64,000 nt of DNA from Rubripirellula tenax (GTDB lineage Bacteria > Planctomycetota > Planctomycetia > Pirellulales > Pirellulaceae): assembly GCF_007860125.1 (NCBI RefSeq), contig NZ_SJPW01000003.1, positions 892,764 to 956,763 on the forward strand. Reading direction: 5' to 3'. The notes beneath the pieces were generated by a model. It was given only the letters and a program-made list of their open reading frames with translations. It was not told the origin of the DNA and made no database searches. Of this stretch, positions 11,085-32,300 are shown in pieces. How positions within the stretch are numbered: position 1 is the stretch's first letter; each line of letters starts with the position of its first letter. Both the position numbers and the translations under genes were made by a program.

Positions 11085-11138
11085 GGCGTTAGGATTAAGG
11101 GGTTAGGGAATCAGTGATGTGAAAATGCAATTTGACGT

Positions 11139-17544: not shown

Positions 17545-20500
17545 TCAAGTTGGCGTCGCGACGGAGACTTGCGTTTGAGTCTCGATCGCCTGCGGCGTTT
17601 GCAGGGGCACCAGCAAATCGGATCGCTCGGCCCTGACCGCCTTCTCGGTTTCGTACCGTAATCGAGTCGCCGTGGCTTCGGTTTGAACCAGTTCGTCGTA
17701 CTGCTTGCCCGTCATCACCCGCGTCTGTTCGCTCAACAATTCCGGGTCGTACGTCAGCCCCGGATGGTCTTGCGCGGTGGCGTACTTCTCGATGCCGACT
17801 TTGGCCGCGTAAAGCGTTTTCTCGATCGCGGCGATCCGATCATCCGCGGTCTTGCGGGCGATGCCCTGCGGTTCTTTCTTTGCCGAACTGCCAAACGGGT
17901 CGTAGTCGTCGCCGGCGTGCGTGATCCGGTCCCACCAACTCGGGTAGCGACCAAAGATGTTCGTCGCGATCCGATCGGATCGGTCCATCATGTAATTCGA
18001 CACGGCGCGACTTCGTTTGAAGAACGACGTAGGAATGAAAGCATGATCCCAAACCGTTTTTGACTTTACCGCCATGTATCGCACGTTGGCAATCAATTCA
18101 TACAGCAGCCCCAGACTGACTTCGTTTTCGAGCATCTGGCGATACGTGACGCCGTAGTTGAGCGATCGCTCGGCCAAGTAATTCAGCTTTGGCATGATGT
18201 TGCGCACGCCGCCGCGGCCCCATGTTCGGCACGTCCGGGCGACGCGTTGTTCATTGAACAGATCCGTCAAAATCGAATCCACCAACTCGCCACCGATTTG
18301 GCGCACTTCGTCGTCGGTCATCGGTCGGTCGATGTATTGTTCGTTGTAGCGGGGAAACGTCCGTTCGCTGACCAATCGAATGAAACGATCGACTTTGTCT
18401 TCGAACTTCAATGCCAAGAAAATGCCGTGCTTGTTAGCTTTGCTGGTGATGAAGTCACGATCGATCGCGTCAATTCCGTCGACTTCGAACAACACCGCCG
18501 ACCCCTTGGTTGCATCGAGGGTTCGGCGCACTTCCAGTTTGCCGATCTTACGACGTTTGAAGAATCCCCACTCCGTATCGGTGTCGCCGGTGTCATAGCG
18601 GTGAACGATGATCCAGCGGTGCAGCGGATCGTCTTTGGACAGTTTGCGTTGCAATCGTTTCGCTTCCTCCTCGAGCCACTCGGCCTTCGGTTGAAAAAGA
18701 ATCGTCCGGCGATTGATGTCGAATTCGTGAACCGCGCCTAGCGACACGTCGGCCAAGTCTTGCGCGCCGCCGGTCACGCCGCCGACGATTTCCTGGCTGC
18801 GGGCGACGTACTTGTTCCACTTGCTGACCGCTTTCAAAAATTCACGCTGCGTCTTCAACTGACTCGGCTTCTTTTCGTCGCTGACCGGAATCAAGGACGT
18901 GCCCAGCATCGCTTCGCCGCCCGTTCGTGAGTCGCCGACGATGTAAAAATTGATGTCATGGTCGGCCGCCGCCCGCAGGAACTGACTCTTGGCCAACTGC
19001 TTGAAAGCGACCGTCGATCCCGAGGGTGTCTCGTAATAGTTATTGGGAATGATGATGGTCATCCCCGACCATTGTTGCAGCAGCGATTTGTCGTGATCGA
19101 CGGCGCGGACCAAGTCAAGGAATCCATAATAGGAAACATCCCACACATCCAAACTGCTGCCGAAGTAATCGGCAAGCTGGGTCCATTTGTCGATGTCGGT
19201 GGTCGTCGTCTTTTCGTTGGCGATCAGCAAGAAACGTGAGCCGTCTTCGCGCAGGTAACGTTCGGAAACTCGAATGAACGTCTTGCGATAATCGACCCGG
19301 CGATACTTTTCGCGGTCGTCGCTCGACTTGGGTCGTTGCAAATCCAAGTCGACGCCCAGAGCGAACCCTTGATACGGAATCGCGTTGGCCGAATCTTTGA
19401 TGCCGATCCGCGTCTCGATGACCGTGGTCGCGCCGGGTGCCAATTCGCCGACGCGATTTTCATAGGCCCCGGATAGCAGGTCGAATTCCGCATCATCGGT
19501 GCCGAAGAAAACGATTTGGTTGGTGTCCAAGTCACCGCCCAACAACCGAAGGTGCGATCGTACGGCGCGATACAGATACTTCTGGTCGAACGTCTCGTCA
19601 CCAACATTGGTGACGCCCCAGATGACTCGGGTCGATTCGCCCGGCGCCAAACTGTTCAAACACGTGATCGGCATCAATTCGATGGGAAAGCGGACGTGCA
19701 GGTCTTCGCCATTTTCGAAGTTGCGAAACGGACGCCCGATACCGCTCTCGAGACTCGCTTGCGGCGACACCGGATGTCGCAGTCGGAACGATCGCTTGCG
19801 GGGATCGTCGACGACGTAGTCGCCCAATCGCAATCGAATGCCGATCGTGTCGAACGTGTACGTTTCCTCCGGTGCAAGCGATTGCTTGATTTCTAAATCG
19901 ACGCTCTTGACGAGCAGCCAGTCGTCGCTTTCTAAGAAGATACGAACGGTGTAGTTGGGCGGCGTTGGCATTCCGCCGCAATTGCGAACGGTAAGGTTGT
20001 CGATCGAAACCAGGGAATCGGGTTCTAAGACGGTGTACTCGCTGGCGACGTCGAACGTGACCAGATCCAAGTCGTACGGCGAGTCATACGTTCGGCTGCC
20101 GCCGCGTGCATCGGTGACAACGATTTGGAATCGACCATCGTTGCCCGACCACGCGTCTTTGGCGCGGTACCGCGACGTCGATCCATCGCGTCCGGACGGG
20201 CCGTTGATGCCGCCCGGGTTGGACCGCATGATGGTCCGCGTTTGCGTGTTGCCCTTTGAATCGCGGTACGTTCTTGTTTCGGTCCAGTGATAGCTGCTGC
20301 CGCCTTTTCCGCCGGGGCCGCCTCGTCCACCACGACCACTTTTGCCGGCGAAGCCCAAGTCGCCGCCGACCAGGTTGCCTTTGACCAACATCAATAGGCC
20401 CGTGTTTGCTTCGTCGACCGAAACGATGGCGACGCCACCCTTGCCGCCCGGTTTTCCGTCGGTCGGTTCGCCTGCATCACCGCCATCGCCACCGGGTCCG

Positions 20501-20979
20501 CCGTTGGACCCGGACGTGAACCGAGTCGCGTTGCGTCCACGATACCCTTGGCTGCCGGGGCCGCCGTCGCCGCCGCGTCCTCCGTTTCCGCCTTTGCCCC
20601 CCGTGCCGCGAATGTACAGATAGCCTTCGTTGCCGATCGCAATTTGGTCACGCAAGGCCGATCGTGTTTGCCCGGCCGGTTGGACTTCACCGTCGATGGC
20701 CAGCACACCGCTGGACCGGTCACCGCGCTGGTAATCGAGTACCAATTGGGCCGCGCCGGCGTGCTGGCCGGGGACCGCATCGGTCGCGTCGCCGCCGCGC
20801 ATCCCGCGTGTGCCCGGTGTGGCGGGCGAGTTGTAATAGTTTTGTCCGTCGTGACCGTTGGGCCCATCGCGACCGCTGATGTCGATCACACCCAACAACT
20901 GCGTCTCGGCATCGGACGCAAAGCAGCCGGCGTCACTGAAACTAGGCGAAGAATCGTCGGGGGAAGATGAAAACGGCAA
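17545..20979 (-). CDS. Large protein with collagen-like N-terminal Gly repeats
   Basis: Protein of 1144 residues. About residues 35-60 and 120-230 are Gly-Xaa-Yaa-like (GGKGGNGGRGGDGGPG, GRGGRGGPGGKGG). The middle (about 320-600) looks like beta-sandwich domains, with a WGVTNVGDETF segment and LAPGATTVIETRIG typical of CARDB/DUF11-type repeats. A probable alpha/beta region (RFLLIANEKTTTTDIDKW, MTIIIPNNYYETPSG) follows, and the C-terminal 400 residues are helical and charged. No signal peptide or transmembrane helix is visible. The start is a TTG at 20979; no in-frame ATG exists before residue 59, and a GTG at about residue 31 is an alternative. The gene follows the ECF sigma factor and thioesterase genes. 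Confidence 0.7.
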   Translation of the reverse strand: MPFSSSPDDSSPSFSDAGCFASDAETQLLGVIDISGRDGPNGHDGQNYYNSPATPGTRGMRGGDATDAVPGQHAGAAQLVLDYQRGDRSSGVLAIDGEVQPAGQTRSALRDQIAIGNEGYLYIRGTGGKGGNGGRGGDGGPGSQGYRGRNATRFTSGSNGGPGGDGGDAGEPTDGKPGGKGGVAIVSVDEANTGLLMLVKGNLVGGDLGFAGKSGRGGRGGPGGKGGSSYHWTETRTYRDSKGNTQTRTIMRSNPGGINGPSGRDGSTSRYRAKDAWSGNDGRFQIVVTDARGGSRTYDSPYDLDLVTFDVASEYTVLEPDSLVSIDNLTVRNCGGMPTPPNYTVRIFLESDDWLLVKSVDLEIKQSLAPEETYTFDTIGIRLRLGDYVVDDPRKRSFRLRHPVSPQASLESGIGRPFRNFENGEDLHVRFPIELMPITCLNSLAPGESTRVIWGVTNVGDETFDQKYLYRAVRSHLRLLGGDLDTNQIVFFGTDDAEFDLLSGAYENRVGELAPGATTVIETRIGIKDSANAIPYQGFALGVDLDLQRPKSSDDREKYRRVDYRKTFIRVSERYLREDGSRFLLIANEKTTTTDIDKWTQLADYFGSSLDVWDVSYYGFLDLVRAVDHDKSLLQQWSGMTIIIPNNYYETPSGSTVAFKQLAKSQFLRAAADHDINFYIVGDSRTGGEAMLGTSLIPVSDEKKPSQLKTQREFLKAVSKWNKYVARSQEIVGGVTGGAQDLADVSLGAVHEFDINRRTILFQPKAEWLEEEAKRLQRKLSKDDPLHRWIIVHRYDTGDTDTEWGFFKRRKIGKLEVRRTLDATKGSAVLFEVDGIDAIDRDFITSKANKHGIFLALKFEDKVDRFIRLVSERTFPRYNEQYIDRPMTDDEVRQIGGELVDSILTDLFNEQRVARTCRTWGRGGVRNIMPKLNYLAERSLNYGVTYRQMLENEVSLGLLYELIANVRYMAVKSKTVWDHAFIPTSFFKRSRAVSNYMMDRSDRIATNIFGRYPSWWDRITHAGDDYDPFGSSAKKEPQGIARKTADDRIAAIEKTLYAAKVGIEKYATAQDHPGLTYDPELLSEQTRVMTGKQYDELVQTEATATRLRYETEKAVRAERSDLLVPLQTPQAIETQTQVSVATPT

Positions 20980-21033: not shown

Positions 21034-21432
21034 CTAAACGGTGTTGGCGTACAACTTTTGCAGTTCTTCGGGGACGCGTTGCAGTTTACCGTCACGGTCG
21101 ATGACTCCCAACGTCACCGTTGCCTCGACCAGTGCGGTGCCGTCGCGAGTGATCGAGTAGTCGTGGATGATTTTGGCGGCGGTGACTTTCGCGATCCGCG
21201 TGTGGATATCGATCAGGTCATCGTACTTGGCGGAACTGCGATACCGGCAATCGACGCGGACGACGACCACGAACTGGCCCGCTTCCTCCATCGACCGATA
21301 CCGACCGCCGCTGGCGCGCAGCAGCTCAGTCCGACCGATTTCGAAATACTGCAAGTACCGCGAATGATGCACCAACCCCATGGGGTCACATTCGTCGTAG
21401 CGGACGCGTAATTGGGTCGTATGTTCTCGCAT
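21034..21432 (-). CDS. Acyl-CoA thioesterase, YbgC/FadM-like hot-dog fold
   Basis: Single hot-dog domain of 132 residues. The signature is YDECDPMGLVHHSRYLQYFE, where the Asp after the Cys is the expected catalytic residue. It would hydrolyse an acyl-CoA or acyl-ACP thioester; chain length is not predictable. It lies 12 bases after the ECF sigma gene and 54 bases before the collagen-like gene, so the three may be transcribed together. Confidence 0.85.
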   Translation of the reverse strand: MREHTTQLRVRYDECDPMGLVHHSRYLQYFEIGRTELLRASGGRYRSMEEAGQFVVVVRVDCRYRSSAKYDDLIDIHTRIAKVTAAKIIHDYSITRDGTALVEATVTLGVIDRDGKLQRVPEELQKLYANTV

Positions 21433-21444
21433 TTTGATGTTCGT

Positions 21445-22017
21445 TCACTCGCCCCGAAGACTCTGGTACAGCTTGGCTCGTGCCAGTCGCCAATCTCGCT
21501 CGACGGTGGCCACGCTAACGTCCAAGACTTCGGCAACTTCGGGAATCGACAACCCCGAGAAGAACCTCAGTTCGATCACTTCGCGTTGACGAGGCGAGTC
21601 TTTTTCCAGTTCGTCCAATGACGCTTCCAGATCGACGAAGTCACATTGGTTGCTGGCTTCGAAATTGTCCAGCACGATATCCAACGAGCCACGCGTGTAC
21701 TCGCCGCCTCGCTTGGTTGTCCGTCGGGCTCGGGCGTTATCGACCAGAATTTGTCGCATCGCGCGGTTCGCCATTCCGAAGAAGTAACGTCGGTCGGCGG
21801 CATTGGCGACCGCGTCGGAATCGAGCAACCGCAAACAGGCTTCGTTCACCAGCGCCGTCGCCTGCAACGTGTGATCGGGTCGTTCGCGACTCATCAGCGC
21901 CGCCGCCATTCCTCGCAGCTCGCTTTGCAGTTCGGTGAACAACGCTTCCTTGGCCGACTCGTCGCCCGATTTAACCCGCTGAAGCAGAATTGAGACTTCG
22001 TGAGGCGAATCAGTCAT
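21445..22017 (-). CDS. ECF sigma factor (TIGR02999-like)
   Basis: Extracytoplasmic-function sigma factor of 190 residues with region 2 (HTLQATALVNEACLRLLD, then YFFGMANRAMRQILVD) and region 4 (LSIPEVAEVLDVSVATVERDW). The HTLQATALVNEA sequence is characteristic of the group often found near Hanks-type kinases in planctomycetes and acidobacteria. There is no anti-sigma gene beside it, and such factors are thought to be controlled through kinases. The ATG at 22017 was chosen because the family's N-terminus starts there; an in-frame upstream extension is unlike it. A 1249-residue kinase gene lies about 3.5 kb upstream. Confidence 0.9.
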   Translation of the reverse strand: MTDSPHEVSILLQRVKSGDESAKEALFTELQSELRGMAAALMSRERPDHTLQATALVNEACLRLLDSDAVANAADRRYFFGMANRAMRQILVDNARARRTTKRGGEYTRGSLDIVLDNFEASNQCDFVDLEASLDELEKDSPRQREVIELRFFSGLSIPEVAEVLDVSVATVERDWRLARAKLYQSLRGE

Positions 22018-22105
22018 GGCGGCTACTCGAGATTTCGTCGGGGCAATCGATGGCGAACGTTGGACCACCAACATAACATCTGACGCCCGCCACCGACCGC
22101 GCATG

Positions 22106-22137
22106 AAAAACCCTCGCACCTTTTGCAAGTGCGAGGG
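22106..22137 (-). terminator. Intrinsic terminator of the Ala/Asn-rich exported protein gene
   Basis: Nine-base perfect stem (22111-22119 with 22129-22137) and a 9-base loop. On the minus strand it is followed by five T residues. It isolates the gene at 22168-22701 from the ECF sigma factor gene. Confidence 0.88.
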
Positions 22138-22167
22138 ACGGAATCGATCGTGCGGTCGGCTGACAAA

Positions 22168-22701
22168 TTACCATCCGAAGGTCGGTTGGACGGCCGGTTG
22201 GTAGATCGGTTGTGGGTTGTAGTATTGGTTGTCGATGGCACGGGCACCGCTGAAGCTGTTTTGTCCCCAATTGGCTCGTGCGTTCGCGTTGGCACGGGCG
22301 TTGGACCAGGTTCCGTTGGCGATGGCTTGGCCGTTGGATCGGGCGACGCCACCCCAAGTCGATTGAGCGGTCGAGTTGACGTGCGATCGAGCACCCCATC
22401 CGTTCGCGATCGATCGGCCGTTGGCGATAGCGACGCCACCGTTGGCGATGGCGGTGCTGTTTCCGCTTGCGAAGCCACCGTTGCGACCGCTGCCGAACAT
22501 GTTGGCTTGAGCGAATCCGCCGTTACGGGCGACGGCGGTCGCGTTCAGACGGGTGTTGCCGCGGCCGCTTGCGTTGGCGATCGCAGTGCCGCCGTTGGAG
22601 TAGCTGCTGGCGGTGACTTGAGCGTTTGCGTCGACTGCGAACATGCTAAGGGCGAACAAGCAAAGGGCGGCCAGGGCGATCGAGGTGGTGATGCGGGTCA
22701 T
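22168..22701 (-). CDS. Small exported Ala/Asn/Gly-rich repeat protein
   Basis: Protein of 177 residues with a clear Sec signal peptide (MTRITTSIALAALCLFAL, cleavage after ANA). The mature part is low complexity with short quasi-repeats based on AIANG, for example GGTAIANAS, STAIANGGVAIANGRSIANG and NGQAIANGTW. Aromatic residues are few until a Tyr/Pro/Gln-rich end. Such a sequence could form a beta-solenoid or a surface filament, but no family is recognised. The ATG is preceded by AAGGAA. The bipartite TTAAGGG-CGCA element lies 74-102 bases upstream. A strong terminator follows. Confidence 0.75.
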   Translation of the reverse strand: MTRITTSIALAALCLFALSMFAVDANAQVTASSYSNGGTAIANASGRGNTRLNATAVARNGGFAQANMFGSGRNGGFASGNSTAIANGGVAIANGRSIANGWGARSHVNSTAQSTWGGVARSNGQAIANGTWSNARANANARANWGQNSFSGARAIDNQYYNPQPIYQPAVQPTFGW

Positions 22702-22774
22702 CGTAAGGTTCCTTGAAAGAAAGTTGAGTGAGTCGTTTTTGAGTCTGAAAGTCACAGTTGGCTTTCATGGGAGT

Positions 22775-22803
22775 CATGCGAGAACCTTGGCCAAACCCCT
22801 TAA
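22775..22803 (-). promoter_or_regulatory. Shared bipartite element, copy 1 (TTAAGGG-N16-CGCATG)
   Basis: On the minus strand TTAAGGG is followed by 16 bases and CGCATG. The same layout, with CGCAGG, precedes two other small exported protein genes. It ends 74 bases before the ATG at 22701. A T/A-rich block (GAAAAAACTTCAAG) lies just upstream. I read it as a likely shared promoter; direct proof is absent. Confidence 0.6.
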
Positions 22804-22847
22804 CGCTTTCTTGAAGTTTTTTCGGACACCGTCATCGACTCATCAAT

Positions 22848-22911
22848 TCGCTGTGTCACCGATTCACCGATTCGCCGATTCGCCGTGTCACCGATTCACC
22901 GTGTCACCGTG
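22848..22911. repeat. 8-base tandem repeat, TCRCCGNK
   Basis: Eight consecutive 8-base units, all in register and mostly of the form TCACCGAT, TCGCCGAT or TCACCGTG; the first unit (TCGCTGTG) is degenerate. It lies in non-coding DNA between two exported-protein genes, so coding constraint does not explain it. Confidence 0.8.
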
Positions 22912-22927
22912 TCGGGCTGCGTCAACG

Positions 22928-22960
22928 AAAAAACGCCGAATCCTGGGCAGGATCGGCGTT
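22928..22960 (-). terminator. Intrinsic terminator of the EDRNE-repeat protein gene
   Basis: Eight-base stem (22932-22939 with 22953-22960) with a second short stem inside, followed on the minus strand by six T residues. It lies about 53 bases after the stop codon at 23013. Confidence 0.85.
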
Positions 22961-23012
22961 GGGTGGTCGTTCCGTCGTACGGTGAACCGTTTTTAGCGAT
23001 TCGCCATGAAGG

Positions 23013-23777
23013 CTACTTGAATGGATTCAAATTGCGTCCAAGCGAGCGTAGGTTGCCGGGCAGAATCGTGTTGCGGCGAACGGGTTGGCTAGGCCGACGC
23101 GCACCCGTTGTGGGTGTGGAAAACTGAACGTGTTCGTTTCGGTCTTCGATGACTCCACCTTGGCCGGGGTAAACGACTTGGCCAGGATAGACGCCATAGC
23201 CCGGTTGTCCCGGTCGGTTTTGGCCGGGTTGGGCACCTGGGGTCTGGCCGCCTGGCTGGGTGCTGTAGGTCACGTTTTCGTTTCGGTCTTCAATGATGCC
23301 GCCGCCGTGATGGACGCCACCGACTTGTCGCCGCGAAAGGTTTCCGTGCGGCACTCCGTTGGAAGTCCACTGGGTCCCCGTGACATGCCACTGGATACCG
23401 TTCACATCCGTTTCGTAGCGATTGACTTGTTGATACGAACCGGGGTCGGCATAGGTCCGGTTCGGGTCCAGCACGCTTTCGCGGACCGTGTTCTTGTCCG
23501 TCCGAACGATCACGCGGCCGGTGAAGGGATCGTACTGGACGTCGGAAACCTGGCGACCCGAGTTGTAGATTTCGGGGTTGTACCATCCACCGCTGTTGAT
23601 AGGGCCTGCACCGCTGATTGGGCCTCCGCCATAAACCGGGGCTCCCTGGATCGGTCCTGGGCCGCCGACGCCAATCTGACCTGGGTACGATGTCTGGGCC
23701 GAAGCACTGGAGGCAGCCAACGACAGCGAAGCGACGATGGCGAGGGCGGAACTTCGTGAGATGATTTTCAAAGGCAT
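23013..23777 (-). CDS. Exported Gly/Pro-rich protein with EDRNE repeats
   Basis: Protein of 254 residues with a Sec signal peptide (ALAIVASLSLAASSASA). The mature protein has a Gly/Pro-rich N-terminal stretch, then a domain with YDPFTGRVIVRTDKNTVRESV and YETDVNGIQWHVTGTQW. Two copies of GG(I/V)IEDRNE(N/H)V (about residues 160 and 210) flank a Gln/Gly/Pro-rich linker. No family is recognised. The bipartite TTAAGGG-CGCAGG element lies 65-93 bases upstream of the ATG. A terminator follows the gene. Confidence 0.75.
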   Translation of the reverse strand: MPLKIISRSSALAIVASLSLAASSASAQTSYPGQIGVGGPGPIQGAPVYGGGPISGAGPINSGGWYNPEIYNSGRQVSDVQYDPFTGRVIVRTDKNTVRESVLDPNRTYADPGSYQQVNRYETDVNGIQWHVTGTQWTSNGVPHGNLSRRQVGGVHHGGGIIEDRNENVTYSTQPGGQTPGAQPGQNRPGQPGYGVYPGQVVYPGQGGVIEDRNEHVQFSTPTTGARRPSQPVRRNTILPGNLRSLGRNLNPFK

Positions 23778-23841
23778 GGTCTGGATCTCATGGGGTTAAA
23801 TTGGGGATGTATGTCAGCATACTCGGGGAGTGTCAGTCAAA

Positions 23842-23870
23842 CCTGCGTCGTGCGTCGGTTGGACCCTTAA
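23842..23870 (-). promoter_or_regulatory. Shared bipartite element, copy 2 (TTAAGGG-N16-CGCAGG)
   Basis: TTAAGGG, 16 bases, CGCAGG on the minus strand, ending 65 bases before the ATG at 23777. Its second block continues as CGCAGGTTTG, identical to copy 3. A 14-base hairpin (CACGT-AAAA-ACGTG, 23878-23891) lies just upstream of the first block. Confidence 0.6.
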
Positions 23871-23958
23871 GAAATTCCACGTAAAAACGTGATTCGTCGC
23901 TTTCTGGTCATTTCAGTGTGATCAGACGTCGCAATGCGAAAGGTCTTTCTGGGCAAAG

Positions 23959-23990
23959 GGTTGGCGAATCCTCTGGTTGGCGAATCCTCA
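23959..23990. repeat. Tandem 16-base duplication over a stop codon
   Basis: Two adjacent 16-base units (GGTTGGCGAATCCTCT and GGTTGGCGAATCCTCA) differ at one base. The second unit contains the stop codon of the PDZ gene. It looks like a recent duplication at the gene's 3' end. Confidence 0.8.
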
Positions 23991-24692
23991 AGGGGTGCCC
24001 CGCAGGGCACGGCGTACCGCGGCTTTGGCGCCGTCGCTCAGTTCGCCGTTTTCAAGTTGGTCCTGAATTTCAGCGATCGTGCCGCTCATTCGGACGCGTC
24101 CGACGTTGGGGTCCGACGATGCGATGTCCAGCATGATTTGGTCGCCGTTCTGGCTGACCGAAACCGATTCTCCGTTACCGGAAACGGACGAGGAAACCGA
24201 CGAGGACGCTGATGAACGGGTTCCCGGCGACGTGCCCAAGGGCGAGAAGCTGCGGCCCATCGCGGGTCGGTTGGGCTGGATGACTGGGAACCGGTTCACG
24301 TTGGGCAGCATCGCTCCCGGCCGGTTCCCCATGCCAGCAACCAACATTTTTGGAACGCCGCGTCGGATCACCATCAATCCGATTCGCGGGTTCGCATTCC
24401 CAAGATCTGAAGCCGCTTGAACGGGCCGTTGGTCGATTTCGGTAAGGATATCGCCGACCCGCAGGCCCAACTCGGCGGCTCGACTGCCCTCGGCAACGCT
24501 CTCGACCACCATTCCTTTGTGGGGGCGAAGCAGCGGCAGGTGCATCCGCAACAGTTCTGGCATCTCGGTCAGCGTCATTCCCCATTCGTCGGCAACGGGA
24601 GCTTCCGCCACGGGCGGCGCCGGGGCATCTTGGGCAGGCAACGTGTTTGTGGTGAAAGCCAGCAAGGCGGCGGCGATAAGAAAGCGTTTCAT
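23988..24692 (-). CDS. Exported PDZ-domain protein
   Basis: Protein of 234 residues with a Sec signal peptide (MKRFLIAAALLAFTTNTLPAQ). A single PDZ-like module spans about residues 35-115: LPLLRPHKGMVVESVAEGS, LRVGDILTEIDQRPV and GLMVIRRG, the pattern of DegP/HtrA PDZ domains, but with no protease domain. A long Ser-rich linker and a small C-terminal region (MLDIASSDPNVGRVRMSG) follow. It is probably a periplasmic or surface peptide-binding module. Its upstream region lacks the TTAAGGG element found before its neighbours. Confidence 0.78.
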   Translation of the reverse strand: MKRFLIAAALLAFTTNTLPAQDAPAPPVAEAPVADEWGMTLTEMPELLRMHLPLLRPHKGMVVESVAEGSRAAELGLRVGDILTEIDQRPVQAASDLGNANPRIGLMVIRRGVPKMLVAGMGNRPGAMLPNVNRFPVIQPNRPAMGRSFSPLGTSPGTRSSASSSVSSSVSGNGESVSVSQNGDQIMLDIASSDPNVGRVRMSGTIAEIQDQLENGELSDGAKAAVRRALRGTP

Positions 24693-24749
24693 GGGATGGC
24701 TCTTGGTAAAGGTGTGGCAAGTTTTATTGGAACGAATGCTGGAACTGCG

Positions 24750-24781
24750 AAAAGTCTTCGCCACCCGAGAGTGACGAAGAC
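24750..24781 (-). terminator. Intrinsic terminator of the Gly/Ser-rich exported protein gene
   Basis: Seven-base stem (24754-24760 with 24775-24781) extended by three further pairs past one mismatch, followed on the minus strand by four T residues. The short T run makes it weaker than the others. Confidence 0.55.
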
Positions 24782-24803
24782 CGGAGGGGTATTGAGTCAG
24801 TAT

Positions 24804-25385
24804 TTAGCGGTGGTTGAAGACTCGGTGGTTGGATCCGGTGTTGATCGATCCGTTCGTGACGGGGAAGGTTTGGTAGGTCGGTTGGCCCCATTGGCGAGTG
24901 TGGCTGTTGGACCAGGCGTTCGTGTTCTGGCCGAAGCCGGTCGATTGGCTGCCGCCGTAAACTCGCCCATTTTGGATCCCCGTTTGGCCGCCCGAGATGA
25001 CTCGGCGGTTGCCGCCGGTGCTGGTCACACCGCCATGGCTGAAGTGGGTGCCGCCTCGACCGATGTTCAGGTTCATGTTGTGAGCCACGCCGCCCGGTCC
25101 GGCTCCGGCACCGATCGAGTTGCTGATCGCCAAGCCGTTGGGGCCGGCACCCAGTGCGAATCCGTGGCCAAATTGCATTCCGTTCTTCGAGCTGCTGCGG
25201 CTCTTGACGATCGAGATCGGGCCGTTCGCCGATCCGCCCGCTCCGGCGAATCCCTTGCCGATGTCGACCCAAGACCCGGCCGATTGAGCCGACGCGGTGG
25301 AAGCGGAAATGGAAAGGACAGCGGCCAAAGCCAGGCTGGCGAAAACGGTGCGAGCGACGGTGGTGATGGTGATCGAGTGAGTCAT
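24804..25385 (-). CDS. Exported Gly/Ser/Asn-rich protein
   Basis: Protein of 193 residues with a Sec signal peptide (ARTVFASLALAAVLSISASTASA). The mature part is Gly/Ser/Asn-rich, for example GKGFAGAGGSANGPISIV and SNSIGAGAGPGGVAHNM, with many His and Tyr in the last third. No family is recognised; it resembles the Ala/Asn-rich protein at 22168 in style rather than sequence. The bipartite TTAAGGG-CGCAGG element lies 63-91 bases before the ATG. A probable terminator follows. Confidence 0.72.
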   Translation of the reverse strand: MTHSITITTVARTVFASLALAAVLSISASTASAQSAGSWVDIGKGFAGAGGSANGPISIVKSRSSSKNGMQFGHGFALGAGPNGLAISNSIGAGAGPGGVAHNMNLNIGRGGTHFSHGGVTSTGGNRRVISGGQTGIQNGRVYGGSQSTGFGQNTNAWSNSHTRQWGQPTYQTFPVTNGSINTGSNHRVFNHR

Positions 25386-25447
25386 GGGATTTCTCTGATT
25401 TGGGCGTTTGCGGGAAGTTGGCGACCCGTTTGGCCGCCTCACCCAAA

Positions 25448-25476
25448 CCTGCGGCAATTCGCCGGAAACCCCTTAA
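25448..25476 (-). promoter_or_regulatory. Shared bipartite element, copy 3 (TTAAGGG-N16-CGCAGG)
   Basis: TTAAGGG, 16 bases, CGCAGG on the minus strand, ending 63 bases before the ATG at 25385. An AT-rich block (CTTTTTGAAAAACG) precedes the first half, as in copy 1. The last bases of the kinase gene lie only 25 bases upstream. Confidence 0.6.
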
Positions 25477-25501
25477 ACGTTTTTCAAAAAGTTTTTCCCT
25501 G

Positions 25502-28500
25502 CTACTCCGGGGTCCACCAGGCCTGGACGTCGTCCAGCTTAATCCCGCCTGCCCCCGAAACCTCGATCCGCAGCTCGGCATCGTTCACAGGCGGCCAAGT
25601 CTGGTCGGTGGTTCGGAAATCCCCTTTGGCAACGGTCCACTGATCAGCCGCCGGTTGGACTTCGATGACCTTCGCTGCGTCGATCCAAACGCGACACGTC
25701 GCCGGACGGCTATCAACCGTCTTCATCCAAACCTCGATCTTGTATTCGGATGCCGGTTGGACGGGGAACACTTGAGTGACGTTTCCACCGCTTGCCGCTG
25801 GAATCATCAAGCATTGATCGCCGTCATGCGAGTCGTCTCGAACGACACGACCGCCCGCGTCGTCGGTCCAATAGCGGGTCGACCCGAGTTCAAACCCACC
25901 GTTCAGCACAGCCGCCCGGAATGGCCCCTCGCTGTCAATGGGGACTTCAAATTCACTGGCGCGAGGAATCTTCACCAACGCTTCCAAAAAGGTTTTCATC
26001 GCCGGCAGTTTCGGGTCCTCCGGTGCAACTTTTTGCAGTGACCCGTAGCGCATCCCCAGCGGTCGAATGACGGTCAGCATCAAATCGGTCGCCGGTTCCA
26101 ATACGCGTGCGCGCTCAATCAACGTTTTCGATTCCTCGTACCGCTGGGTCGCACCCAAGACTCTTGCTTGTCCCAGCAGGGCCGCCGCCCGATGGTCGGC
26201 CGTTCGCCCTTTGGCAAAGGCTTCGCGATACGCCGTCATTGCTTCGGCGAGTCGATTGCGGTGTTCGAAACACTTCCCGATACCCCAATTGACCCAGTCA
26301 TGATTGGGATCGATTCTCTTTGCGGCGGTGAAATGTTCCCCCGCCGCGGCGACCTGTGTGGCGCTGGGTCGTTCGTCTTGCAATTCCAGCAGTCCCGCCA
26401 CGGCATGTGCGTGGGCCGAATCAGGTGATCGCTGCAGCGCCGTTTCAGCAGCCCGTCGCGATTCGTCCAATCGATTTTGACCCAATCGAATCGACGCCAG
26501 CAACGCGGGATACTTTGCATCATCGGCCAATCGATCGGCCATCGTTTCGACCACATCAGCCGCTTCTTCACGTCCTCTCAAATCATCGGCGCGGACCAAC
26601 GATGCATCGACAATCGGAACTAACGCGAGAGTCAATTTCGAAGTCTCGATGAACCGATCGATCGCTCTTTCGACGCATGCGGCGTCTTCGGAACCCGAAT
26701 CGTAGATCGCCAATCCGTGTTGCCAACCGACCCACGGTTGTTCGCCCTCGACTTGGTTGCGTGACAACCGATCGGCTTCTGTCGCGTCCGCTAAACTCCA
26801 GCGGCGAAGTTCTGCGGCTCGGCGTTTGCGGTCGGCCGCATCGAACTGCGAATCGGCTGCCGGCAATCGTCCGATCAACCTTGCTTGGGCGCGATAGATC
26901 GACGAACGATCGGCGAACGCAAAACACTTCTGCGGATCCATTGCTATGCATCGCCCGATGGCCTGGATTGCGGCGTCGAATTGGCGGGGGTCATTGCCAC
27001 CGTCTCGCTGGGCCATCAGAAACTCGACCTGCGCGAGCGCCAGACTGGTCCAGTAATGATTGGGGCGCTGGGTCGACGCGCGAAGGAACAAGTCTCGCGA
27101 CGTGACCAAGGAATCGTCACCTTGGTAATTGCGAAAGAATAGCTCGAAATTTGGGTCCATCGCCGCAATCATCGACAGCACACCCAAGCCGTGCGAATCG
27201 GTCGCAGTCTGGGTCAATCCAAGTTCGCTGGCGGCCAACCGTGACCCCTTCATCAACCGAAACTCGGCCGCGCGGCGATACCAGTGGGCGGCCTCGGAAC
27301 GTCGAAACATTTCGATCCGCTGGCTGACGACTTCCGCCGATTGGCATTCGCTTTTCCCTTCGTTCGTCCGCAAAAATCGCCGTGTTGCACCAAATAGTCC
27401 GCCGCTTGAAGTGATCCTGCCGATACCCGTCAGCCGGGTTCCGGCGGTCTTGATCAGCATCGCGTCCAGCAACATCCACTGTTGGTAAACATCCCAACGA
27501 AGTCGGTCTGTTTGTTCCGGCGAAAGGTCGCTCGCCGGCAAATGAAACCACCAGTCGGGATGATCCCAGACACCAAGCGATTCCAGCGATGCGCGACAAG
27601 CCGCAATCGAACGACTGTCACGCGCAAGCACGTTGTAAAGACTCGTTTCGTCTGCGTATTGATAGAAGTCGACGATGCGGCTCAGCTCGATCGCCTTCTG
27701 AACCGTTTCGTCTTGGATTTCGCGTAACTGGGTTTCTTCGTCCAGCGAGTCGATCGCGCGGTCGAGCACGCTCAATGCGGATGAGAATCGGTCGGCAGCG
27801 ACTTCCTTTTTCGCCAGATTGATTGCACCTTGGGCCGACGTCCGAAGTTCGATCAGTCGTCTTGCCGATACGGCATCGAGCGCCATCGCATTGGCATTGT
27901 TCTCTCTTTCGATGCGAAACTGTTTCGCCTTCAATGTGTTCCAGATTGCTGAGCCCGAAATCGATCCGACCGTGACCAACGTCGCCGCAACGGCCGCCGA
28001 ATAGGCCAGCGTGCGGTGCCCACGAATCCACCGACCGATCCGCACCGACGGTGAATCGCGATGGACCGAAACGGGTTCGTCCGCCAACCATCGTTCGATG
28101 TCCGTCGCTAAGTCGGAAACACGTCGATAACGATTGGACGGGAATCGCGACATGGCTTTTAAGCAAATCGCCTGCAGCGCCGGTGGAACATCGGCGACGA
28201 TTTCAGAAGGCCGTGGGAAGTCTCCGGCGACGATGCGAGGCAACAGTCGCTTGATCGAGTCGTCACGGTGTGGCGGCAGTCCCGCCAGAATTTCGTACAG
28301 CGTCGATCCCAACAAATAGATATCCGTTCGCGTGCTGATTTCGTCGATCCGGCCGTCGGCCTGTTCGGGGCTCATGTACTGGGGCGTGCCCACGGTGCCG
28401 ACAGCATGTGACGGTGCCGAATCGTCGTCCTCGTTGTTTTGTCGAATCTCGTCCATGAACACTTGGGTCATGGACTCGCTTTGCGCCGGATCGAGCAACT

Positions 28501-29251
28501 TCGCCAATCCCCAATCCACCACCAGTGTTTCGCCATAGGGACCGACCATGATGTTGGCTGGCTTGATGTCGCGGTGCAGAATCTCGCGGCTGTGGGCGTA
28601 GCTGATCGTGTTGCAAACATCGATGAACTTACCCAGCAATTGACGCAGCCCAAGTAGTTTCACAGATGGTGTGTCATGAAGATCGCAGTTGTGGTAGTCG
28701 GCAATGGTTTGCTTGAGTGTGCCGCCCTGAATGAATCGCATCGCATAAAAACGGCGTCCATCGGGCCAGGTTCCCATCGCATAAACGGGAACAATTCCGG
28801 GGTGTTCCAACCGCCCGGTAACTTCGGCTTCTTGAACGAATCGCTTGCGAGCTTCGGGATTGTTCTGCCATTTCGGTTGGATCTGCTTGATCGCGACTTC
28901 GCGGCCGAGTTGTTGATCGAGCGCGATCAACACTTCGCCCAATCCACCCTGTTGATGTCGAGCAAGGACTTTGAAACGATGTGTTTCACCGTCACCGTCG
29001 GGCGATTCGTCGACCGACGACGGGACGGCGACCTCGTCGACGAACTGCTTGCCGATGAAAGCGGATTCCAAAAACTCGTCGCCACCGGCTGCTTCGTCGG
29101 CAGCCAGCAAGGCGTTGACTTTCGACTTTAAATCGTCGTCTCCGCCGCATTCCTGTTCAACGAAGGCTGCTCGATCGCTGGTGGGCAAATCGAGCGCGTC
29201 GAAGAAGATCGATTCCACGCGCTCGGCGCTCGATGGATTGGGTTTGCTCAC
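25502..29251 (-). CDS. Membrane Ser/Thr kinase with long TPR-like region and C-terminal beta domain
   Basis: Hanks-type protein kinase of 1249 residues, GTG start with GGAAG upstream. Residues about 90-375 form the kinase: P-loop QGGLGEV, Lys122 in AIKQI, catalytic loop HRDIKPANIM and DWG in place of DFG (VVDWGLAK), a usual planctomycete variant. One membrane segment follows (YSAAVAATLVTVGSISG, about 415-435). The remaining part is rich in Ala-Glu-Arg helices of TPR type (about 440-1120) and ends in a carbohydrate-binding-like sandwich (VLNGGFELGSTRYW, IKLDDVQAWW). The outer part should be periplasmic. It could act on the ECF sigma factor nearby, which is inferred from gene neighbourhood only. 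Confidence 0.9.
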   Translation of the reverse strand: MSKPNPSSAERVESIFFDALDLPTSDRAAFVEQECGGDDDLKSKVNALLAADEAAGGDEFLESAFIGKQFVDEVAVPSSVDESPDGDGETHRFKVLARHQQGGLGEVLIALDQQLGREVAIKQIQPKWQNNPEARKRFVQEAEVTGRLEHPGIVPVYAMGTWPDGRRFYAMRFIQGGTLKQTIADYHNCDLHDTPSVKLLGLRQLLGKFIDVCNTISYAHSREILHRDIKPANIMVGPYGETLVVDWGLAKLLDPAQSESMTQVFMDEIRQNNEDDDSAPSHAVGTVGTPQYMSPEQADGRIDEISTRTDIYLLGSTLYEILAGLPPHRDDSIKRLLPRIVAGDFPRPSEIVADVPPALQAICLKAMSRFPSNRYRRVSDLATDIERWLADEPVSVHRDSPSVRIGRWIRGHRTLAYSAAVAATLVTVGSISGSAIWNTLKAKQFRIERENNANAMALDAVSARRLIELRTSAQGAINLAKKEVAADRFSSALSVLDRAIDSLDEETQLREIQDETVQKAIELSRIVDFYQYADETSLYNVLARDSRSIAACRASLESLGVWDHPDWWFHLPASDLSPEQTDRLRWDVYQQWMLLDAMLIKTAGTRLTGIGRITSSGGLFGATRRFLRTNEGKSECQSAEVVSQRIEMFRRSEAAHWYRRAAEFRLMKGSRLAASELGLTQTATDSHGLGVLSMIAAMDPNFELFFRNYQGDDSLVTSRDLFLRASTQRPNHYWTSLALAQVEFLMAQRDGGNDPRQFDAAIQAIGRCIAMDPQKCFAFADRSSIYRAQARLIGRLPAADSQFDAADRKRRAAELRRWSLADATEADRLSRNQVEGEQPWVGWQHGLAIYDSGSEDAACVERAIDRFIETSKLTLALVPIVDASLVRADDLRGREEAADVVETMADRLADDAKYPALLASIRLGQNRLDESRRAAETALQRSPDSAHAHAVAGLLELQDERPSATQVAAAGEHFTAAKRIDPNHDWVNWGIGKCFEHRNRLAEAMTAYREAFAKGRTADHRAAALLGQARVLGATQRYEESKTLIERARVLEPATDLMLTVIRPLGMRYGSLQKVAPEDPKLPAMKTFLEALVKIPRASEFEVPIDSEGPFRAAVLNGGFELGSTRYWTDDAGGRVVRDDSHDGDQCLMIPAASGGNVTQVFPVQPASEYKIEVWMKTVDSRPATCRVWIDAAKVIEVQPAADQWTVAKGDFRTTDQTWPPVNDAELRIEVSGAGGIKLDDVQAWWTPE

Positions 29252-29361
29252 AACGATGGGACTTCCAACTTCGAGTGTTCGGAAGCATTAGGATAACCTT
29301 TTGCCTCGCCGCGAAGCGTTGCTCGCGACACCTGTTGGTTTGTTCATTCGTTGATGCAACG

Positions 29362-32300
29362 TTACGCGTTGTAGATCAACCGGCCGATCGTTCCCGAAAC
29401 AAAGTCGGTATAGACCAGCGATCCGTCGGCCATTCGCATGATGTCGGTGATGAAGCCGGCATTGGACGAAACAGGCACGATGTCGATCAACTGGCCGCTG
29501 GCATCGATACGTCCGGCGCGAAGCACTCGGTCACCAATGTCGGTGAAGATGAATGCGTTTTGCAGGCTTGCGGGATACTGGCCGCCTTGGATGAAGTCGC
29601 CCATGATGATTGCGCGAGCACCCGATGAATGGCTGCGCGTCCAAATCGGCGGCGTCACTTCGACGCCACTGTTTAAGAATGCCTGAGTGCCGGGCAGCGA
29701 CGAGTAACTGCCTCGATCACCACCGGTCAAACCGTTTCCTTCGTACGCGGGCCAACCAAAGTTCTTGCCACGACCGGTGTTCAGTTCTTCCCAGTTAAGC
29801 CAACCGACGTCTGCGATGAAGACCTCGCCGTCGTTGGGGTTGATCGCGAATCGGAACGGGTTGCGAAGGCCCAAAGAGTACACGCGGCTGGCGTTGCTGG
29901 CGGAGTTGCCGTCAAAGAACGGGTTGTCCGAAAGTCCAAGCCCGGTCACCGGATCGACTCGCAAGATTTTGCCGTTCAGACTGTTCAGATTCAGGGCTCG
30001 CAAGTTGACCGCATCAACGCGACCGTACGAACCGCCGTCACCGGTCGAGATGTAAAGCGCGCCATCGGAACCGAATTCCATATCGCCGATCGTGTGGCTC
30101 AACTCATCACTGGCGATGAAGTCGGCAATATAATTTCCGTTGGCGTCGAGGCCTGATTGAGGATCGCTTGCCAGCGGACGACGATTGGGTTGACCGATGT
30201 TTTGGTAGGTGCTGTTGGTACCGACCACGACGACCTCGCTGCTGCGATCGGCCACCGTCCAGTCAGCGTTGACGGTCATGCGAGTCACTCGGGCGACGCG
30301 TCCGCCTTCACCATCGGGACCACCGTTGCCGCTCAATCCTTGAACTTCCGGTGGATCATAGGTGTAGGCCAAATAGATCTGGCGCGTTTGGGCAAAGTTC
30401 GGCGGGATCGCGATCGACATCAATCCACGGTCGTTACCGACCATGTTGACCATGTCACGAATGTCCAAGAACGGTGTGCTGGCAACGGTTCCGTTGGCGT
30501 TGACTAGGCGGATGATGCCGGCCCGTTCGGCGACCAAGAATCGTCCGTCGGGAAGTTGTTCGACGGTCGTCGGTTGCAGGAATCCGCTGGCGATCGTTTG
30601 CGTGCTAAGCGAACCGACGACTCGCGGTGGTGGCAATGCAGCCCCGTCGATCAACGCACTGACTTCGCCGCCGCTGATCGCACGGTCGTACATGCGGACT
30701 TCATCGATTTGACCGACGAACTGGTTGTTGATTTTGCCGATCGACAACTGCGCCACGGCAGTCGTCGGTCGCGAGCCGGCAAAGTTGTTATTGGTGCCGA
30801 CGACTTCGCCGTTGACGAACAATTGCATGAACGTACCGTCGAACGATACCGCGACGTGATTCCACGCGCCAACGGTCAAGACGTTGTCGACGGAGACGCC
30901 CTTCCATGTGTTTCCGCCACTGCCGAAACCGACGGCCAGCCCATCGCCGTACGTATAGATGAACGGATAACGCGTGCCGATCGAATTGCCGACTTGGTAA
31001 CCGATCACGCCACGATACACGTCGGTCCCGCTGGTCGGCCGAATCCAAAGCGATTGGCTGTACGAACCTTCGGTCAACCGTAGTGATTCGCTTTCGGCGA
31101 TTTCGATCGAGTCGTTGACTCCGTCGAAGGCGAATGCGCCGGGGTTGTTGAAGTTGGTGTTGGGTGCCGTGGTGATCGGACCGGTGGTTCCGGCGAAGTT
31201 GGTCGCGACGCCGTTATTACCTAACCCTGACGAATCAAGGATCGGGCCGCTGTTGGACGTTTCGTTCAGATTCCAGTATCCGATCAAACCCGAACCCGAT
31301 TCATCGTCGACAATCGTGATCTGGGCGGTTCGTGGTTGACCTTGGACGGCGCCTTCGACGCGGAACAGTGATACGCCGAACGAGATGTCGCCGTCGTCAT
31401 TGCCGTCATCAATCAACGGAATGCTGATCGTGCCGAATTCTTGACCATCGGCAAAATTAACCACGCCCGACTCGATGCCGAAGTAATCGACACCCGAGAC
31501 CGCCGATCCGTCTTGCGTGGTATAGAAGACCTGAGCTGCTCCGCTGGTGCCGCCCGTCCGTCGCAGTCCGATCGAAACGCTGCCCGCGTTTTCATTGACG
31601 GTAACTTGAGTGCTGGCCAATCCGATTTCGCCGGGGCCGGTTTGAGGCGGTGTGACGGTGCCGGTACCGCTAAGCACGTCAACTTCCAAGGACGTCAGCG
31701 ATCGGTTGTACATGCGGACTTCGTCGATTTGTCCCAGGAAGTTGTTGTTGACCGCGCCGATGTTCAATCGGCCATAGGCGGTCGTCGGACGCGAACCGGC
31801 AAAGTTGCTGTTGGCAGAAACTTGTTCGCCGTTGACGAACAGTGTCATCGCCGTGCCGTCAAACGTGACCGCGATATGATTCCATTGTCCGATGTCCAAC
31901 ACGTTGTCAGCGATGACGCCTTTCCACGTGTTCCCACCGGTTCCGAACCCGGCATAGATCGCGTCGCCGTAGGTGTAGACAAACGGATAGCGTTGTCCGG
32001 CAGTCGAACCGGCTTGATAGCCGATCACACCGCGGAAGACATTGGTGCCGCTTGTCGGCCGAATCCAAAGCGATTGCGAATAGGTGCCTTCGGTCAAACG
32101 AAGCGACTCGCTTTCGCCGACCTGTATCACGTCGTTAACGCCATCGAAGTCGAACGCACCAGGATTAGCACCGTCGATTTCTGGTACATCGCTGGTTGGT
32201 CCGTTGGGCGCGACAAAGTTGAGCGCCGATCCGTTGTTACCGTTACTCGACGAGTCGACGATCGGTGATGTGGTGGATGCTTCGTTCAGCTTCCAATAGC

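Follow-up and report, generated by a model that had tools for sequence, protein, structure and literature searches.

The 64,000-nucleotide stretch of Rubripirellula tenax DNA analysed here (the window; assembly GCF_007860125.1, contig NZ_SJPW01000003.1, positions 892,764 to 956,763) contains a gene cluster on the minus strand, with the order kinase, g3, PDZ-domain protein, g2, g1 and extracytoplasmic function (ECF) sigma factor (Table 1). Each of the genes g1, g2 and g3, which encode exported proteins, is preceded by a copy of a bipartite element, TTAAGGG-N16-CGCAKG. The three places where the initial annotation had located it (minus strand, 22775-22803, 23842-23870 and 25448-25476) were all borne out. 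No further occurrence was found in the window, as had been claimed, and none of 100 dinucleotide shuffles holds one. TTAAGGG alone occurs four times versus a shuffle mean of 1.77, the fourth occurrence (11095-11101, plus strand) being without the second half, also as described. The gap between CGCAKG and the ATG codon is 73, 64 and 62 bases for g1, g2 and g3, respectively, which agrees with the annotated 63-74 bases to within one base of counting. The resemblances reported around the boxes were likewise recovered: CGCAGGTTTG is common to copies 2 and 3, and an A/T block to copies 1 and 3. The latter two also have TTAAGGGGTTT in common.

Table 1. Features of the gene cluster in the window
Feature	Coordinates	Strand	Basis
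Copy 1 UP-element-like A/T-rich tract, adjoining -35-like box on the upstream side	22804..22825	-	A/T-rich columns 3-19, 65-site alignment
Copy 1 -35-like box TTAAGGG, gene g1	22797..22803	-	pattern scan, alignment, g1/g3 comparison
Copy 1 -10-like box CGCA, gene g1	22777..22780	-	pattern scan, alignment, g1/g3 comparison
Copy 1 leader hairpin (TGAAAG...CTTTCA)	22746..22767	-	fold z -1.9 and class-wide signal
g1, exported repetitive protein, 177 amino acids	22168..22701	-	no Pfam; single-sequence model
Terminator-like hairpin, 11 pairs, between g1 and ECF gene	22111..22137	-	terminator scan
Copy 2 -35-like box TTAAGGG, gene g2	23864..23870	-	pattern scan, alignment
Copy 2 -10-like box CGCA, gene g2	23844..23847	-	pattern scan
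g2, exported protein, 254 amino acids	23013..23777	-	homologs at other loci keep element
A/T-rich tract of copy 3	25477..25498	-	65-site alignment
Copy 3 -35-like box TTAAGGG, gene g3	25470..25476	-	pattern scan, alignment, g1/g3 comparison
Copy 3 -10-like box CGCA, gene g3	25450..25453	-	pattern scan, alignment, g1/g3 comparison
Copy 3 leader hairpin	25420..25438	-	fold z -1.4 and class-wide signal
g3, exported Gly/Ser-rich protein, 193 amino acids	24804..25385	-	no Pfam
PDZ-domain exported protein, without own element	23988..24692	-	profile search, locus comparison
ECF sigma factor, 190 amino acids, proposed reader of element	21445..22017	-	PF07638, TIGR02999
Ser/Thr kinase, Pkinase, TPR and CBM_4_9 domains, proposed sigma activator	25502..29251	-	profile search, locus comparison

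The whole-genome frequency of the element, which the initial annotation had put forward as a check, did not single it out: the strict pattern TTAAGGG-N16-CGCA has four sites in 7,986,721 bases, and its reversed control also has four, a frequency that looks close to chance once the cluster is set aside. The peculiarity of this genome is the crowding of three of the four sites into 2.7 kb. As the string is not enriched genome-wide, R. tenax by itself could not decide the matter, and the significance of the element comes from its conservation in other genomes. The fourth site (L004), flanked by what we take to be genes for a DUF1552 protein and a sulfatase, was set aside as a chance occurrence owing to its unusual distance (343 bases) from the start of the DUF1552 protein and the absence of a match in the model scans. 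A sequence model (R2), with the best 150 of 1070 candidates scored, gave only the three cluster sites at E<0.01, the next value being 0.64. Since the strict pattern is near chance elsewhere and R2 yields only these sites, the regulon of R. tenax may comprise just g1, g2 and g3. Hexamers resembling the sigma-70 boxes TTGACA/TATAAT were not found in 21400-25600, which is weak evidence as shuffles hold 0.8.

The conservation of the element was examined with a 65-base sequence model (R1), derived from 15 sites in genomes G000-G004 and G017 that were chosen by the strict pattern, disregarding the sigma factor gene. A scan of 22 genomes of the genus with the strict pattern gave matches at the corresponding genes of G001-G004. 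In G001 and G002 the homolog of g2 has a different location and has kept its element, which reads TTAAGGC in G001. R1 reached E<1e-5 in the genus in the six training genomes only, which match by construction; beyond the training sites it matched at G001:C2:506475 and, with an E-value of 0.012, at G004:C4:146743. Orthologs of the sigma factor, defined by E<=1e-60, are present in the genus in G000-G004 only, and the best R2 values in four genus genomes without one were 0.012 to 0.35.

In the family set of 241 genomes, 25 possess a sigma ortholog. With strict filters, R1 matched at E<=0.01 in 30 of the 241, that is, in 23/25 with the ortholog versus 7/216 without (Fisher p 7e-24), and in 18/20 versus 6/215 when the training genomes were left out (p 6e-20), with no phylogenetic correction of either p-value. 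R1 missed two sigma-positive genomes, G191 and G199; these have the variant TGAGGGG-N16-CGCA before g3 and g1, as does G189 with the same cluster, and the element precedes g3 in all 25 sigma-positive genomes. In 12 genomes examined closely, identity was 72% or more for the orthologs and did not exceed 54% for other relatives. Sites also occur far from the sigma gene in G001, G002 and G004, and all six sites of G232 are at least 1.3 Mb from it. Four genomes lacking the ortholog (G069, G082, G165 and G178) gave weak R1 matches, which were judged to be due to chance. Over 392 genomes of the phylum, R2 gave E<=0.003 in R. tenax and two others, about the chance level, with filters strict enough to recover just two of the three R. 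tenax sites.

The most telling comparison is that of the same target genes with and without the sigma factor. Homologs of g3 and g1 were found in 34 and 36 of the 241 genomes, respectively, including all 25 sigma-positive ones. Upstream regions of 68 of these 70 genes were examined, the two of G210 being left out, and sorted into an A type, T[TG][ACG][AG]GG[GCT]-N16-C[GA]CA, and a B type, TG[TG]CCCC-N16-CGC[ACT]. Of the 50 genes in sigma-positive genomes, 49 are preceded by the A type and not one by the B type. Of the 18 genes in the genomes lacking the ortholog, 14 are preceded by the B type (once as TGGCCCC), not one by the A type, and four by neither; the count of the B type is not an independent measure, the point being its exclusiveness. 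The four genes with neither type (two in G211, and those of G213 and G214; L297, L298 and L299) possibly reflect a third pairing of sigma factor and promoter, or a different arrangement. Scanning the loci gave five more B-pattern occurrences off the expected place, one of them 235 bases before g1 of G049. A chance origin of the three copies in the window is ruled out by the window shuffles and by this comparison of g1 and g3.

Near the target genes of G088, G185 and G183, a different ECF factor is encoded (L288-L290), 25-29% identical to that of the window and with a kinase gene close by. It matches PF07638, remains below the TIGR02999 cut-off (L289 tested) and has an acidic region 2.2, QTEDVFQN. 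In G185, the frames of the second sigma factor and the kinase overlap by four bases.

Site anatomy was derived from 65 sites in 27 genomes, 48 of the sites belonging to genomes outside the R1 training. Four of 69 model matches (L173-L176, E 0.003-0.008) had been dropped: L174, L175 and L176 are without a CGCA box, and L173 combines TCAAGAG with a downstream frame resembling the middle of a gene. All four are in genomes without the sigma ortholog, and dropping them thus favours recognition by the sigma factor; they are still counted in the 7/216 given above. The consensus consists of an A/T tract, T-T-[ACG]-A-G-G-G, usually GTT, about 12 freer bases, and CGCA (62 sites) or CACA (3 sites), followed usually by G, then by G in 65/65 and usually by T. 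The -35-like box reads TGAGGGG in Rhodopirellula. With the widened pattern both boxes fit a spacing of 16 in 65/65 sites, and 16 is the best spacing in 64/65. The start codon is 46-89 bases away in 57 of the 64 sites with a downstream frame and farther in the other seven.

Just downstream of the boxes, a hairpin recurs. The 36 bases from +2 after CGCA fold better than dinucleotide shuffles, with a mean z of -2.0 and 74% of values below -1 over 43 non-redundant sites; windows that begin no later than -10 or no earlier than +20 have average z values of -0.35 to +0.61. When 3' arms were exchanged between sites, the arm +10..+17 preferred its own partner in +22..+34 (mean rank 0.32, where 0.5 denotes no preference; controls 0.51-0.52), as did the arm +7..+17 (0.34). 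The arm +3..+9 did so in one of four windows (0.37), and the arm +1..+6 hardly at all (0.43-0.47). Pairing sets in early, with a mean probability of 0.6-0.8 over the ten bases that follow CGCA. The leader hairpin is seen at B-type sites as well (mean z -1.65, n=12); copy 2 of R. tenax, before g2, has no convincing one (z 0.12). These data would fit a transcript start a few bases, perhaps 6-8, after CGCA, as an indirect and loose indication.

The 64 downstream proteins fall into 13 BLAST groups, the largest of which are those of g3 (21), g1 (18), g2 (4) and a coiled-coil exported family (3). Very large proteins make up three further groups, with 4, 3 and 2 members, which are possibly distant kin; their N-terminus is LEPR-xLL-like, and at L150 and L163 the long frame begins 236 and 239 bases downstream, respectively. 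Among three large proteins scanned, one has RTX-type calcium-binding repeats, one a Planctomycete extracellular motif below cut-off, and one was unmatched. The small groups comprise a twin-arginine translocation (Tat)-type protein (2), a His/Gly-rich protein (2), a tandem pair (2) and three singles. Judging by eye from signal peptides, Tat signals and surface-protein-like N-termini, nearly all downstream proteins appear to be exported or surface-like. In G232 (L134), two near-identical genes for a 109-residue Gly/Pro-rich exported protein lie about 2.3 kb apart, each with its own A-type element.

Within the cluster, searches against Pfam and NCBIfam left g1, g2 and g3 unmatched at E<=0.001. 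The single-sequence model of g1 (mean predicted local distance difference test score, pLDDT, 76.8) consists of a signal-like helix and ten β-strands; a Foldseek search with it returned 31 matches at E<=10 and none at E<=0.001. An amyloid likeness was considered and rejected, FapC (rank 1, E 0.53) and CsgA (rank 12, E 4.7) being both far from significance. The g3 model is poor (pLDDT 48.6), and sequence searches of the PDB with g1 and g3 gave nothing at E<=0.1. Upstream of g1, at 22840-22930, short imperfect repeats of CGATTCACCG / CGTGTCACCG were noted on the plus strand.

It is likely from the arrangement that g1, g2 and g3 form separate transcription units. The hairpin after g1 has a T-run, and similar hairpins were seen by eye in L033, L036 and L040; those after g2 and g3 were seen by eye only and are not listed by the terminator scan, which as a whole gave four sites versus 5.7 in shuffles and is thus not above chance. 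Autoregulation of the ECF gene by this promoter was discarded, as no model match lies directly upstream of it in the window or the loci compared, and the terminator-like hairpin separates it from g1. The kinase is present at 13 of 24 other loci with an ECF ortholog, often with g3, PDZ and g1 in between, several of the stretches being too short; the ECF stretch of G232 shows no kinase match. No membrane segment of the kinase exceeds a hydropathy cut of 1.6. A large protein with Gly-rich repeats and DUF7932 is encoded at 17545-20979, near thioesterase and ECF genes, and occupies the same place in G002 and G004 with 80-90% identity.

The sigma factor scores far above the curated cut-offs of PF07638 (217.3 bits vs 21.1) and TIGR02999 (206.6 vs 126.15). 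Its region 2.2 reads LQATALVNEA, with Thr54, in 25/25 orthologs, the acidic motif being replaced. We estimate at about 0.84 the probability that TTAAGGG-N16-CGCA is a -35/-10 promoter pair read by this ECF factor and that the factor is activated by the kinase. The initial annotation had likened the fixed spacing to a -35/-10 pair, which is supported by the conserved boxes, the 16-base spacing and their presence in 25/25 sigma-positive genomes. Its link to the neighbouring ECF factor, then conjectural, has gained support from the presence and absence of both in 241 genomes, the distant sites, the spacing and the altered -35 half on the same targets. The second element type, the leader hairpin and the likely control by the kinase go beyond that account.

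Since 25/25 orthologs have LQATALVNEA with Thr54 and the ECF43 group offers a precedent, the following chain is proposed. A signal would act on the Ser/Thr kinase. The sigma factor, without the acidic region-2.2 motif, is probably inactive at first, and would be switched on by phosphorylation of Thr54 by the kinase, as reported for EcfP/PknT and proposed for EcfK/PknS. It would then direct RNA polymerase to the TTAAGGG-N16-CGCA promoters of probable surface-protein genes, the upstream A/T tract probably aiding polymerase binding. The transcript would begin some 6-8 bases past CGCA and carry the short hairpin in its 5' leader, which may protect the mRNAs.

Several observations weigh against this interpretation. 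The R. tenax genome itself shows no enrichment of the strict pattern outside the cluster, and the loose pattern (TTAAGGG-N16-CGCA with up to two mismatches) gives no signal, with seven occurrences in the window versus 11.1 in shuffles. The training sites of R1 were all spaced by 16, and the spacing of its matches is partly a matter of construction; with 21 candidates scored per genome in the family scan and 13 in the phylum scan, E-values are rough. The p-values overstate the association, as the genomes are related and much of the co-occurrence stems from one inherited gene cluster. The A pattern was widened, and the B pattern read off, after the upstream regions had been seen. One sigma-positive genome, G219, has no element before g1. 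At this gene (L280), a near-perfect inverted repeat around AAAAGGTGTCAGGTACC was observed just before the start codon; it looks like a small mobile repeat and may have displaced the promoter. Genomes G187 and G196, 100% and 99% complete, each have one good element and no sigma ortholog, their best sigma relatives (E 1e-32 and 5e-34) being 39-41% identical. In both (L140 and L165), an A-type element stands before a His/Gly-rich exported gene; these elements may be relics or be read by another ECF factor. G017 has the element without the ortholog, in a genome only 74% complete. In the target neighbourhoods compared, that of G087 left out and with no genome-wide search made in either genome group, the second ECF factor lies near targets in G088, G185 and G183 only and is not within the stretches compared of G049, G059 and G084. 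Finally, as a Thr51-to-Ala form of EcfK still works in vivo (PMC13147305, as far as the consulted part reports), Thr54 need not be the sole switch.

The element could be a promoter or operator read by another factor, a sigma factor or DNA-binding regulator that usually co-occurs with this ECF gene. The near-complete genomes G187 and G196 speak for such a factor, and candidates abound, a first look having listed 26-54 ECF-like proteins per genome in the 12 genomes examined closely. Against it, where this ECF factor is missing the -35 half differs on the same targets, with a different ECF gene nearby in three such genomes, and the 16-base spacing and the CGC of the -10 box are unchanged, as a change of sigma factor predicts; moreover, the ECF gene is part of a conserved cluster with g3, PDZ and g1. 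Another reader is thus considered improbable, roughly one chance in nine.

Even less probable, to the point of being very unlikely, is that the whole element is a structured RNA leader, a riboswitch or protein-binding RNA, in which the boxes are RNA motifs and the promoter lies further upstream. The hairpin that follows CGCA in most sites, the early pairing and the partial preference of the arm +3..+9 for its own partner would suit such a leader. Windows over TTAAGGG-CGCA itself, starting at -45 to -10, give no sign of folding (mean z -0.07 to 0.25), the spacer keeps its length of 16 bases while its sequence changes, an A/T tract precedes the boxes, the arm +1..+6 has little preference, and a search of 21400-29400 with Rfam covariance models gave no match at E<=1. 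As for shared descent alone, the upstream regions being copies from gene duplication that selection has not kept, copies 1 and 3 are indeed alike beyond the boxes, and g1 and g3 are both Gly/Asn/Ser-rich. Over 25 genomes, however, the boxes stay while spacer and leader diverge, the downstream genes belong to 13 BLAST groups, and hairpin stems are rebuilt with other letters, which leaves this explanation next to no likelihood.

Under recognition by the ECF factor, the B type invites a further step, for which the odds are about even: promoter and structure-conserved 5' hairpin would form a portable expression cassette for a set of planctomycete surface proteins, and the control of this whole set would have passed in evolution between two kinase-linked ECF sigma factors, with all -35 boxes changing together and the 16-base spacing, the CGC of the -10 box, the hairpin and the targets staying as they were. 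If true, a small regulon would have changed its sigma factor as a whole, by a natural swap.

For Rhodopirellula baltica, the consulted part of PMC2754498 gives 37 ECF sigma factors and documents stress microarray work on R. baltica SH1. In the portions of the open-licence literature covered, no promoter consensus was found for a kinase-linked planctomycete ECF factor, nor this promoter. The present proposal would tie sigma factor, kinase, promoter consensus and target genes into one small system. A different sigma factor and a different -35 box on the same genes would provide a natural test of regulon rewiring, and the same contrast could show which residues read the -35 box.

The element resembles typical ECF promoters in its two short conserved boxes, upstream of the targets at a constant 16-base spacing (64/65 sites, 49/50 g1/g3 genes), with a free spacer. 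An AAC core is common in ECF -35 boxes; the present box, TTAAGGG or TGAGGGG, differs in having none, as does the element in the hairpin fixed just downstream.

An ECF gene beside a Ser/Thr kinase gene is also found in the kinase-associated groups ECF59, ECF61, ECF62 and ECF217, for which the part of PMC8999054 consulted lists planctomycete examples, two of them Rhodopirellula proteins. According to the same part, groups other than ECF43 have DAED or a similar acidic motif; PMC8103513, in the section seen, words ECF59 differently, with a serine site. Unlike these groups, the factor of the window is without the acidic motif, whereas the second factor (L288-L290) keeps acidic residues.

The closest likeness, by motif and kinase neighbour rather than by a group model, is to ECF43, represented by EcfP/PknT of Vibrio parahaemolyticus and EcfK/PknS of Xanthomonas citri. 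As excerpted from PMC13147305, PMC8999054 and PMC8103513, region 2.2 of ECF43 factors is without the DAED acids; in EcfP, phosphorylation of a threonine there by the partner kinase activates the factor, and in EcfK a further site lies in the linker. The hallmark is QTTA, or QATE in EcfK (PMC13147305, same excerpt). The factor of the window likewise has an uncharged region-2.2 motif without the DxxD acids and with a threonine at the phosphosite position (QATA, 25/25), a Hanks-type kinase gene in the cluster (25502-29251), and no anti-sigma family match among the eight proteins scanned here. No ECF43 promoter consensus appears in the excerpts of PMC13147305 and PMC8999054. Unlike ECF43 as described there, the system of R. 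tenax and its relatives has defined candidate target promoters, which lie upstream of genes for exported proteins and have a leader hairpin just behind them.

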